In this document: positions 2,951-12,791 of the stretch, in pieces | Layout of the letters: each line of letters begins with the position of its first letter | How positions within the stretch are numbered: position 1 is the first letter of the stretch | NCBI RefSeq assembly: GCF_026988655.1 | Contig: NZ_JALSKT010000083.1 | Location: forward strand, 18,426-82,425 | Source: Sulfurimonas sp. | Lineage (GTDB): Bacteria; Campylobacterota; Campylobacteria; Campylobacterales; Sulfurimonadaceae | Length of the DNA: 64,000 bases | Direction of reading: 5' to 3' | Program-made: the position numbers and the translations under genes | The notes under the pieces: model-generated | The model's database searches: none | What the model saw: the letters and a program-made list of their open reading frames with translations, nothing else | Told to the model about the DNA's origin: nothing

Positions 2951-4420
<1,470 letters not shown>

Positions 4421-4437: not shown

Positions 4438-4869
4438 TTAAAAAGAGGTAAAATCAAGAAACATAAATTGGGAAAGTAAGATAATAATTATAACAAGTAT
4501 GAAAGGGAAGAGGTGGCTTTTAAATACCCAAGGTTGAATACCAAAAAAGACTTGGTTAACACCACGAAATCCTAGCCATAAACCTAAAAATCCTTTGATT
4601 GAAAGCGCTATTTGAAAAGTGCTTAAACCATCTTCTGTAATCTCTCCAAAAACTTGTGTAAATAGATACATCCCTGAAAGAACGGCAACTATTAATGCTT
4701 TAGGAACAACCTTTCTTACATGCATCATAATAGCTTCGCGAGCTTTTTTATGCTCTTCTTCATTGAGAGACTGCTTCATTTTTGCTATAAAGAGATTATC
4801 TGTGATTAGAAAACCTCCATATATAAATACGGCAAAAATATGAATGGTATGGATGATAGTATAAAGAAT
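4438..4869 (-). CDS. Conserved membrane protein with probable ATT start codon
   Basis: The ORF track gives 113 residues from ATG 4779, but the frame is open 31 more codons upstream and the added residues (TIIHTIHIFAVFIYGGFLIT) form an obvious first membrane helix. No ATG, GTG or TTG exists in that extension. The only well-placed start is ATT at 4869-4867: AAGGA lies six bases upstream, and the upstream gene's stop overlaps it as TAATT, the same geometry as the common TAATG junction. That gives 143 residues with four membrane segments (about 3-23, 45-70, 85-102 and 118-140). The general look is of small CopD-like or DUF integral membrane proteins of Campylobacterota. Function unknown. Confidence 0.6.
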   Translation of the reverse strand: MLYTIIHTIHIFAVFIYGGFLITDNLFIAKMKQSLNEEEHKKAREAIMMHVRKVVPKALIVAVLSGMYLFTQVFGEITEDGLSTFQIALSIKGFLGLWLGFRGVNQVFFGIQPWVFKSHLFPFILVIIIILLSQFMFLDFTSF

Positions 4870-5279
4870 TATTTATCCTTTTTTGGTGCTTTTCTAAAAA
4901 GGTGATAGTTTTCAAGCTCAAGCATCTCTTCAACATAACTGACTATACATTTGGCGCAATCTGTCCAAACACCAGAGGGAAGTCTTACTTCTAACTTTTT
5001 CTTTTCACGAAGTTTAATGATTTTTTTAGGTGATAAGACTTTTGTAACAGGTGAAAAATCTACATCAGTTAAATCTATGTCGTTTTTATAAAATATAGTT
5101 TGCTTCTTGAAATTTCCCCAACCAGGAATACCATCTTCAGTATACGGTACTTCATGACCATTTTTAAATTTTACCATCATTTTATAATGAGAGTCTTCAA
5201 AGACTTGGGAAACTTTCCCCGCACCAAATACTAAACCGTAGAGTTTATCTTTTACTTTTACATCATCAAAATATGCCAT
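4869..5279 (-). CDS. Conserved hypothetical protein, basic, possible N-terminal beta-barrel
   Basis: A 136-residue soluble protein I do not recognise. The first half (VKVKDKLYGLVFGAGKVSQV, then YKMMVKFKNG and PYTEDG) alternates short strands and glycines in the way small SH3- or KOW-like barrels do. The second half is Lys-rich (PKKIIKLREKKKLEVRLPSG) and includes a CAKC cysteine pair at about residues 107-110 that could bind metal or form a disulphide. The context suggests nucleic-acid or ribosome association, but this is only a guess from fold-like pattern and charge. GAGAAG precedes the ATG. It is translationally coupled to the downstream membrane protein through TAATT. Confidence 0.6.
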   Translation of the reverse strand: MAYFDDVKVKDKLYGLVFGAGKVSQVFEDSHYKMMVKFKNGHEVPYTEDGIPGWGNFKKQTIFYKNDIDLTDVDFSPVTKVLSPKKIIKLREKKKLEVRLPSGVWTDCAKCIVSYVEEMLELENYHLFRKAPKKDK

Positions 5280-5308
5280 TTCTTCTCCTTTATTTCTTTG
5301 TAAATTGT

Positions 5309-5573
5309 AAGTACCTCTCCATAAATAACTCCAATTTCAGAAGCTTAAAAAGAGGGCTAATACAAGGCGAAATTCCGCATGAGCTACTAGTAGCTTAAAG
5401 GATTTTCAACGAAGTAGTAGCCCTCTTTTTAAACTTCCCTTCGGGCAAAGAGCAAATAACCCTATTGCGTCGTTAGATTCCTTTGGATTAACCAGTTAGT
5501 CCTGCAGAAATCTGCCTAGCACTAGAGCTATTTGCTCTTTGCTGAATCTGGGGTTATTTATGGAGAGGTACTT
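5309..5573. repeat. Nested-palindrome element, MITE-like or structured RNA
   Basis: Nearly all of the 327-bp gap between the 136-residue gene and gatA is one symmetrical element. The outer arms are 32 bases (5309-5340 and 5542-5573), start AAGTACCTCTCCATAAATAA, and match as an inverted repeat with three mismatches. Inside are two separate perfect stems: TTAAAAAGAGGGCTA at 5345-5359 pairs with 5418-5432 (15 bp), and GCAAAGAGCAAATA at 5445-5458 pairs with 5529-5542 (14 bp). The first loop contains the 14-bp palindrome AGCTACTAGTAGCT (5382-5395); the second contains a GCAGA-AA-TCTGC hairpin (5504-5515). No coding frame or transposase is present. A non-autonomous mobile palindrome is the leading reading; a structured RNA is the alternative. 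Confidence 0.75.
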
Positions 5574-5606
5574 CACTACATTATATCTCATAGTGGTTAC
5601 AATGAG

Positions 5607-6950
5607 TTAAGCCTTGTACGCTACAGCATTTTCTAAGCTTAATGAGCCATCAAAAAGAGTTTGTTCATCGTAAGCTTTTGCAATGAATTGTAGTCCTACA
5701 GGTATGCCATCACTGTTTTTCATGATTGGCAGTGAAAGGGCAGGGAGTCCTGCAAGGTTAACACTAATAGTATAAATATCGCTTAGATACATTTGCATAG
5801 GGCTTGAGAGTTCTCCAAATTTTGGTGCTACAGTTGGTGCAACAGGAGATAAAATCAAATCAACATCTTGAAATATTTTTGCATATTCATCTTTGATGAT
5901 ATGACGTGTTTTTTGTGCTTTTACATAATAAGCTTCATAGTACCCGCTTGAGAGCACAAAGTTTCCGAGTAAGATACGGCGTTTTACTTCATCACCAAAA
6001 CCTTCACTTCTTGTTTTGAAGTAGGTCTCTTCAAGGTTTTTGCCTTCTACTTTATTACCGTAGCGAACTCCATCATAACGCCCAAGGTTTGTGGTCGCCT
6101 CTGCTGTTGCTGTGATGTAGTAAGCTGAGATGTCGTATTTTGCATCCATCATCTCTTTTTCAACGATAGTATGTCCCTGTGATTTGAGTGCTTGGATAGC
6201 TTTTGCATACGCTTCTTTGATAGCATCACTTGCATTTTCAATATACTGAGGCAATACCGCGATAGTAAGCTTGCGAGCTGCGTTTAGATTTGGGACAACT
6301 TTATCATCCATCATTGCGTTTGTAGAATCTTTTTCATCGCTTCCACTTATGATGTCATAGAGTATCGCTGCATCCTCAACATTTTGTGTCATAGGACCGA
6401 TCTGATCAAGACTTGAAGCATAAGCACCAAGACCATAGCGACTCACTCTTCCATATGTTGGCTTCATTCCAACTATACCACAATATGCAGCAGGTTGACG
6501 GATAGAACCACCTGTATCTGAGCCCAAGGCTGCTATGGCTAGACCAGCACCAACAGCAGCAGCAGATCCTCCAGAACTTCCACCAGGAACATGCTCTGGG
6601 TTTATGGGGTTGAGTGTTTTACCATAGTAACTTGTTTCTGTTGTTGAGCCCATTGCAAATTCATCCATATTTGTACGACCAAAAGGAGAGAGTCCTGCGT
6701 CTAAAAGTTTGTTTATAACTGTCGCATTGTATGGTGCGATGTAGCCTTGAAGAATTTTAGAGGCTGAGGTAACAGACCAGTCTTTTACTTGAATGTTGTC
6801 TTTGATAGCAATAGGAATTCCCTCTCCAACATACTTTACGTCAATATATGCGTTAAGTTCTTTATTTTCATCTATCTTTGTTTTTAAGTTATTTGTAAAT
6901 TTGTTGAGTTCATCTTTTGATAATTGTAATGCTTCTTTGAGTGTGATCAC
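5607..6950 (-). CDS. gatA: Asp-tRNA(Asn)/Glu-tRNA(Gln) amidotransferase subunit A
   Basis: GatA is the amidase subunit of GatCAB, which releases ammonia from glutamine to convert Glu-tRNA(Gln) and Asp-tRNA(Asn) into the correct aminoacyl-tRNAs. The 447-residue protein shows the amidase-signature triad: Lys in [10 protein letters not shown] (about 53), cis-Ser in [14 protein letters not shown] (about 128) and nucleophile Ser in [12 protein letters not shown] (about 152). The 340-420 region with [13 protein letters not shown] and [13 protein letters not shown] is also typical. The start is GTG at 6950 with AGGA six bases upstream. gatB and gatC are not adjacent, as is common in this phylum. The nested-palindrome element lies just beyond its stop codon. 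Confidence 0.95.
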
Positions 6951-12224: not shown

Positions 12225-12300
12225 GTCTTGTTAGCTCAGCTGGTAGAGCACGTCACTTTTAATGATGTGGCCGATGGTTCGAATCCATCACAGGACACCA
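12225..12300 (+). tRNA. tRNA-Lys (anticodon TTT)
   Basis: 76 bases with encoded CCA. The acceptor GTCTTGT pairs with ACAGGAC; the anticodon stem CGTCA/TGATG holds the loop CTTTTAA with anticodon TTT. The T arm contains GGTTCGAATCC. It is the first gene of the array and lies about 22 bases after the predicted transcription start. Confidence 0.97.
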
Positions 12301-12317
12301 TTTTTACAGTTTTAAAT

Positions 12318-12393
12318 GGGCGTTTAGCTCAGTTGGTAGAGCGCTACCCTTACAAGGTAGATGTCACTGGTTCGAGTCCAGTAATGCCCACCA
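12318..12393 (+). tRNA. tRNA-Val (anticodon TAC), copy 1
   Basis: 76 bases with encoded CCA. The acceptor GGGCGTT pairs with AATGCCC; anticodon stem CTACC/GGTAG with loop CTTACAA gives TAC. It is identical to the second valine tRNA at 12493. Confidence 0.97.
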
Positions 12394-12410
12394 TTTAAAA
12401 CATTATATGC

Positions 12411-12487
12411 GCGGTGGTAGTTCAGTTGGTTAGAATACCTGCCTGTCACGCAGGGGGTCGCGAGTTCGAGTCTCGTCCACCGCGCCA
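12411..12487 (+). tRNA. tRNA-Asp (anticodon GTC), copy 1
   Basis: 77 bases with encoded CCA and G discriminator. The acceptor GCGGTGG pairs with CCACCGC; the anticodon stem CCTGC/GCAGG holds loop CTGTCAC, anticodon GTC. It is repeated at 12715 together with the preceding ATTATATGC. The ORF at 12414-12596 in the track is an artefact of the tRNA sequence. Confidence 0.97.
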
Positions 12488-12492
12488 TTTTC

Positions 12493-12568
12493 GGGCGTTT
12501 AGCTCAGTTGGTAGAGCGCTACCCTTACAAGGTAGATGTCACTGGTTCGAGTCCAGTAATGCCCACCA
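12493..12568 (+). tRNA. tRNA-Val (anticodon TAC), copy 2
   Basis: Identical over 76 bases to the tRNA-Val at 12318, with encoded CCA. It starts only five bases after tRNA-Asp, so processing must separate two tightly packed tRNAs. Confidence 0.97.
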
Positions 12569-12604
12569 TTTTTGTTTACAAACCTTTTGTTTATGAAAGA
12601 CAGT

Positions 12605-12680
12605 GACCCTTTCGTCTAGTGGCCAAGGACACTATCACTTCATGGTAGTAACAGAGGTTCAAATCCTTTAGGGGTCGCCA
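12605..12680 (+). tRNA. tRNA-Glu (anticodon TTC)
   Basis: 76 bases with encoded CCA. The acceptor GACCCTT pairs with AGGGGTC (one G-T); the anticodon stem CTATC/GGTAG with loop ACTTCAT gives TTC. This tRNA is also the substrate mischarged and corrected through GatCAB for glutamine in such bacteria, only in its Gln counterpart. Confidence 0.95.
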
Positions 12681-12714
12681 CATATTGGTGTTAGAAATTA
12701 CTTTTATTATATGC

Positions 12715-12791
12715 GCGGTGGTAGTTCAGTTGGTTAGAATACCTGCCTGTCACGCAGGGGGTCGCGAGTTCGAGTCTCGTCCACCGCGCCA
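12715..12791 (+). tRNA. tRNA-Asp (anticodon GTC), copy 2
   Basis: Identical to the tRNA-Asp at 12411, 77 bases with CCA, last gene of the array. It is followed at once by ACTCTTTTTT, whose T run may serve as a weak terminator. Its 3' end borders the AT-rich two-gene cassette, a typical position for integrated DNA, but I found no repeat of the tRNA 3' end on the far side. Confidence 0.97.

Follow-up and report, generated by a model that had tools for sequence, protein, structure and literature searches.

A TA-flanked palindromic repeat beside gatA in Sulfurimonas, probably an IS630-mobilised MITE, has an interior of two covarying hairpin modules

The window analysed here, a 64,000-nt stretch of a Sulfurimonas sp. 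genome, contains a layered palindromic element of about 270 bp just beside the end of gatA (5607–6950, minus strand), which raises the question of whether such symmetry reflects a mobile repeat, a structured RNA or an ordinary palindrome. The element is flanked by gatA and a 136-aa ORF (4869–5279), all on the minus strand, and in relatives the same gene neighbours occur without it. Together with its flanking target dinucleotides it spans 5308–5574 (no strand), with TA on the left (5308–5309) and TC, probably a decayed TA, on the right (5573–5574). The outer arms, which have the form of IS630-type terminal inverted repeats (TIRs), occupy 5309–5340 (plus) and 5542–5573 (minus) and are complementary at 29 of 32 positions, exactly the three mismatches that a preliminary description of this DNA had given for an outer 32-base inverted repeat. 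The independent perfect stems of 15 and 14 bp that it placed inside are the longest uninterrupted runs of two pairs of 24-nt inner arms, 5340–5363/5414–5437 (two mismatches, perfect run 15) and 5445–5468/5519–5542 (three mismatches, perfect run 14).

These inner arms close two hairpins, the first (5340–5437, plus; 22 of 24 stem positions paired) enclosing core module 1 (5347–5431, plus) and the second (5445–5542, plus; 21 of 24 paired) enclosing core module 2 (5451–5535, minus), which is the same module on the opposite strand. Module 1 runs from a variable stem through CAAGGCGAAA and, further on, TTTTCAACGAAG to the other side of the variable stem, and the two modules match R1, a covariance model of the 85-nt inner module, with 94.7 and 84.7 bits, respectively. 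The small hairpin of the preliminary description is the mini-hairpin CCCTTCGGG between the two arms (5437–5445, no strand), and its 14-bp palindrome, AGCTACTAGTAGCT, is also present. A single strand takes up a three-way structure, in which a 32-nt outer stem surrounds two long hairpins with CCCTTCGGG between them. Folding of the element as RNA, one of the checks that had been proposed, gave −126.9 kcal/mol (z = −12.4), with none of 100 shuffles equally good. No ORF of at least 80 aa crosses the element, in agreement with the claimed lack of a coding frame, and no Rfam family matched it above its gathering score. Elsewhere in the window, six tRNA genes are clustered in a row (12225–12788), one of them low-scoring (45 bits).

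The element occurs in about a dozen copies in its own genome, a 1.97-Mb draft assembly (96% complete, 87 contigs), where BLAST gave 49 matches and the R1 model 27 modules; it is thus neither single-copy nor, as set out below, lacking in covariation, the two features by which the preliminary description would have abandoned its reading. Besides the window copy there are two more full copies, 97–98% identical, and partial copies at or near the ends of contigs C50, C24, C87, C15 and C68, as expected since repeats break assembly. The genome also holds diverged copies and subfamilies (76–77% identity) and arm-only remnants. Arm-only matches on C37 (in coding sequence), C41, C39 and C76, considered as the same ends around a gene, proved to be chance matches or decayed copies. 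One 55-bp palindrome (G000:C76:3522–3576; L020, L269) contains nothing but the two outer arms, which meet at a short AATTT repeat, apparently after slippage deletion of the whole interior there.

Sulfurimonas MAGs make up nearly all relatives found by pattern. Element length is tight (median 269 nt among 64 distinct elements). With the R1 model, modules were detected in 82 of 135 genomes of the genus and, in a sample across the phylum, in 33 of 298 genomes and 14 of 58 genera. Apparent cases of cargo between modules in L178, L177 and L088 are really pairs of separate or degenerate elements; at L178:1484–2240 (G100:C14), a gene pair resembling a HEPN/nucleotidyltransferase toxin–antitoxin lies between two decayed elements. 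Searches of plasmid and phage collections by blastn gave no match, and no description of the family was found in the open literature, which excludes most subscription journals; a sequence-string search returned only primers.

Mobility was assessed by joining the flanks of 13 own-genome insertions without the element, 11 of them in the query run, and searching for empty sites. Uninterrupted sequence was found in relatives for nine insertions: C83 (the window copy), C46, C26, C10, C18, C74b, C80, C74a and C57a. The site beside gatA is empty in genomes G054, G044 and G038 and at loci L229, L230 and L231. The junction alignment is loose for C83 and C46 (intergenic, 74–79% identity) and tight for C10, C74a and C80. 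The cleanest case is C74a, where the filled site AATAAAT-TA-AGTGCC..GGCACT-TA-TTCAA aligns with the empty site AATAAATTATTCAA in L233 and fits insertion at a TA that was duplicated; the empty sites of C10 and C80 deviate by 1 nt from strict TA duplication. Target-site duplications, whose presence the preliminary description had asked about, are TA-like for most elements, clean at C74a and TA/TC at the window copy itself. Among 45 elements with AAGT/AAGC ends, a T precedes the motif in 37 at each end and at both ends in 30 (binomial p 1.5e-11 per side, T = 0.33). The element family is, then, repeated, precisely inserted and mostly TA-flanked.

The insertion target of IS630 elements is TA, which becomes duplicated (PMC2170065). 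IS630-type transposases were sought across the genus with PF13358, and the element ends were then inspected. Transposase domains of this type were found at L260, L261, L263 and L267, with TIRs beginning TAAGTACCCATCC, TAAGTGCCTAACC, TAAGTACCTATCC and ATACCAATCCCC, and the four IS630 elements, 1069–1126 bp long, have the terminal repeats TAAGTACCCATCCAAAAACAACCCCAA (G369), TAAGTGCCTAACCAAAATTAATGTCATA (G424), TAAGTACCTATCCAAAAATAAAACCAA (G370) and ATACCAATCCCCATTAAA (G371). In 38 of the 64 distinct elements, the outer arms match one of these four ends better than 99% of their own shuffles (G370, 16; G424, 11; G369, 9; G371, 2), while the ends of the other 26 match no IS630 end seen. The window arm, TAAGTACCTCTCCATAAATAACTCCAA, belongs to the G369/G370 type and scores 21 against the G370 end, the 99th percentile of shuffles being 14. 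A candidate partner transposase with matching ends, as had been suggested for the search, is present in congeneric genomes, not in the element's own assembly: neither PF13358 nor an IS630 protein query (a 193-aa fragment) detected an IS630 transposase in the 96%-complete draft. Transposases in the same genome are a usual, not a defining, requirement, and orphan MITEs exist. Among the sequence-level features of an IS630-type MITE that were examined, the enzyme in the same draft genome is the only one missing. PF13358 occurs in only 20 genus genomes against the 82 with modules, and the two show no clear link, modules being present in about 11 of the 20, so that either the enzyme is gained and lost over time or a further one serves as well. 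None of eight IS630 loci contains a module, which indicates that the interior of the MITE is not an IS remnant.

We consider it very probable that the element is a non-autonomous MITE mobilised in trans by an IS630/Tc1-mariner-type transposase. The mobile MITE put forward in the preliminary description is borne out by the dispersed near-identical copies, the empty orthologous sites, including the gatA locus, the TA-flanked ends and the IS630 elements with matching ends. Mobilisation in trans by an IS630-type enzyme is what we infer from these sequence comparisons: a transposase supplied in trans would bind the outer arms of about 30 bp, excise the element and insert it at a TA dinucleotide, with duplication of the TA. 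One element, in L088, has ends of IS5 type: its tips (ATTGAACCCTCTGAACAA/TTGTTCAGAGGGTTCAATTA) are identical to those of an IS5-type IS of the own genome (G000:C39, DDE_Tnp_1 + DUF772), and it has two arms and one recognisable module. That one interior occurs between different ends suggests that it is a payload, although this single IS5-type case is thin evidence.

The interior consists of two inverted copies of the 85-nt hairpin module, in which a CAAGGC/AACGNAG internal loop is conserved and the stems vary freely but stay paired. Folded relatives follow one plan (outer stem, module arm, mini-hairpin, arm with the opposite-strand module, outer stem), with freely differing sequences. In an alignment of 117 distinct module sequences, which was fitted to the model and so leans towards structure, 96.2% of module cells are paired versus 65.9% when shuffled, 969 cells are changed on both sides versus 268 in shuffles, and the covariation score is 0.808, compared with 0.229 for shuffled and at most 0.162 for slid versions. 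Double changes were already present in 25 of 29 pairs in the initial MAFFT alignment, for which the model was not used.

Because a G-U pair becomes an A-C mismatch when read from the opposite strand, the ratio of the two shows whether one strand folds. The module helices of the 117 sequences contain 412 G-U against 29 A-C (222 against 21 in a second set), an excess part of which may stem from fitting, given that the alignment permits G-U. The G-U pairs concentrate beside the conserved internal loops, and the distal stem is nearly devoid of them. The outer arms, scored in a way that treats both mismatches alike, contain 29 G-T and 38 A-C; without a G-T bias, they behave like plain DNA inverted repeats, and the modules, with G-U far exceeding A-C, behave like structures in which one strand folds on itself. 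From these counts, the module appears to function in a folded, single-stranded form, as RNA or ssDNA. Since module 2 is the reverse complement of module 1, each strand carries exactly one sense module.

These properties bear on three other explanations of the locus. A transcribed structured RNA, the other possibility raised in the preliminary description, here taken as a gene or cis-element under selection at its own site and copied by duplication, would account for the very strong fold and covariation, for module stems with G-U but not A-C, and for the modules that adjoin SRP RNA in several genomes. We nevertheless regard it as very unlikely for the element as a whole, given the empty sites and unrelated insertion places, the lack of an Rfam match, the outer arms without strand preference, and a module 2 that is antisense on the strand where module 1 is sense; it may hold for the inner module only. 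Even less likely is a repeat of the REPIN/REP type, mobilised by a RAYT or another Y1 (HUH) transposase that works on single-stranded hairpins. A pair of inverted, imperfect hairpins whose unpaired motifs are conserved, and the strand-specific module fold, would suit such a repeat, and an IS200-like Y1 gene is slightly commoner in module-bearing genomes (15/82 versus 3/53, p = 0.04). However, the ends are TA-flanked and match IS630 TIRs, and we rejected a RAYT/Y1 partner: Y1_Tnp was not found in the own genome, carrying any Y1 gene shows no association with modules (p = 0.29; p = 0.83 for high-copy genomes), and modules are absent beside the 11 Y1 loci scanned. Most improbable is an ordinary long palindrome with arms made alike by template switching (quasipalindrome correction) only, without selection, which agrees with an outermost stem that pairs almost purely by Watson–Crick rules with mismatches symmetric between strands, and which may contribute to arm identity, but which is already contradicted as a complete account, leaving unexplained the CAAGGC/AACGNAG loop conservation, the G-U-only mismatches beside the loop, the TA insertion and the IS-matching ends.

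In G136, an insertion of about 270 nt that bears a module (L179:2874–2958) is present in all three 16S rRNA genes, the 16S match being 1806 nt long and the insertion without AAGT ends; G327, G076 and G093 have none. The G136 insertion is a candidate for the origin of 16S intervening sequences in Campylobacterota. A long module variant of about 105 nt lies about 15 nt from the SRP RNA gene, on the opposite strand, at L186:1773–1877 and in L174 (both G260) and at L185:1684–1787 (G356), possibly as an old insertion fixed there, and matches of the same long-variant length occur at G005:C1:249717 and G204:C1:498314. Beyond the phylum, modules are few, with two loci (L098 and L114) in one Ruminococcus MAG from roe deer cecum. 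There, L114:2170–2345 and 3550–3740 and L098:2715–2795 are single-module elements with their own outer stems, and the neighbouring genes are Ruminococcus-like (dockerin-type repeats). An uncultivated viral contig (L277:5870–6030) has a strong match (42.7 bits) of the same layout, a single module inside AGAGCCTGTTTA-type ends. The resemblance to repeats of marine gammaproteobacteria that the preliminary description had proposed retains one weak lead, a 22-bit module match on a phage contig (L259); the family is found mainly in Campylobacterota.

Among known systems, the element resembles TA-duplicating IS630/Tc1-mariner MITEs in being short, non-coding, TA-flanked and dispersed as near-identical copies with long IS630-like TIRs, but differs from the usual ones in its conserved, two-module folded payload, common to elements with different ends. 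Like Correia and ERIC elements, it is a small palindromic mobile repeat that would fold in transcripts, although its sequence differs and its architecture is three-armed. Correia-element transcripts are processed by RNase III (PMC10969869), and by analogy, transcripts of the present element are probably RNase III substrates. Head-to-head imperfect hairpins are shared with REP/REPIN and CGTC-tagged repeats; REP dimers inside longer palindromes have been described, and CGTC repeats have no known transposase (PMC3733652). REPs, however, are 20–40 bp long with a terminal GTAG or CGTC tag (PMC3733652), whereas here 85-nt modules with an internal-loop motif lie inside IS630-type ends, and CGTC occurs only in module 2 of the window subfamily and is not conserved in the consensus. 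The Coxiella 23S IVS is an rRNA intervening sequence excised by RNase III (PMC4990558), a class that the G136 relative resembles through its location in 16S rRNA genes, unlike the window element, which is intergenic.

Bacterial MITEs are usually regarded as passive ends plus junk. The novelty here is the interior modules, as their strong covariation and recurrence in different ends are not explained by MITE status. Our best guess, inferred only, is that the modules are not a transposase recognition site but work at the level of the transcript or of DNA that is transiently single-stranded, where they might serve, for example, as a processing site or a host-factor site that makes insertions tolerable. 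More tentatively, the inner module could be a motif in its own right, of ancient conservation, that folds strand-specifically as RNA or ssDNA and has become the payload of several unrelated DNA transposons, a reading based on its occurrence in several IS630-type ends, an IS5-type-end element, 16S insertions, Bacillota and possibly Gammaproteobacteria. If true, the module would serve bacterial MITEs in common as a device for tolerance or mobility and would have a cellular partner. The analysis also yields a candidate enzyme behind a large repeat family of Sulfurimonas and a possible source of rRNA intervening sequences in Campylobacterota. That a strongly covarying module absent from Rfam recurs inside MITEs whose ends differ, and in distant bacteria, points to a function under selection within MITEs.
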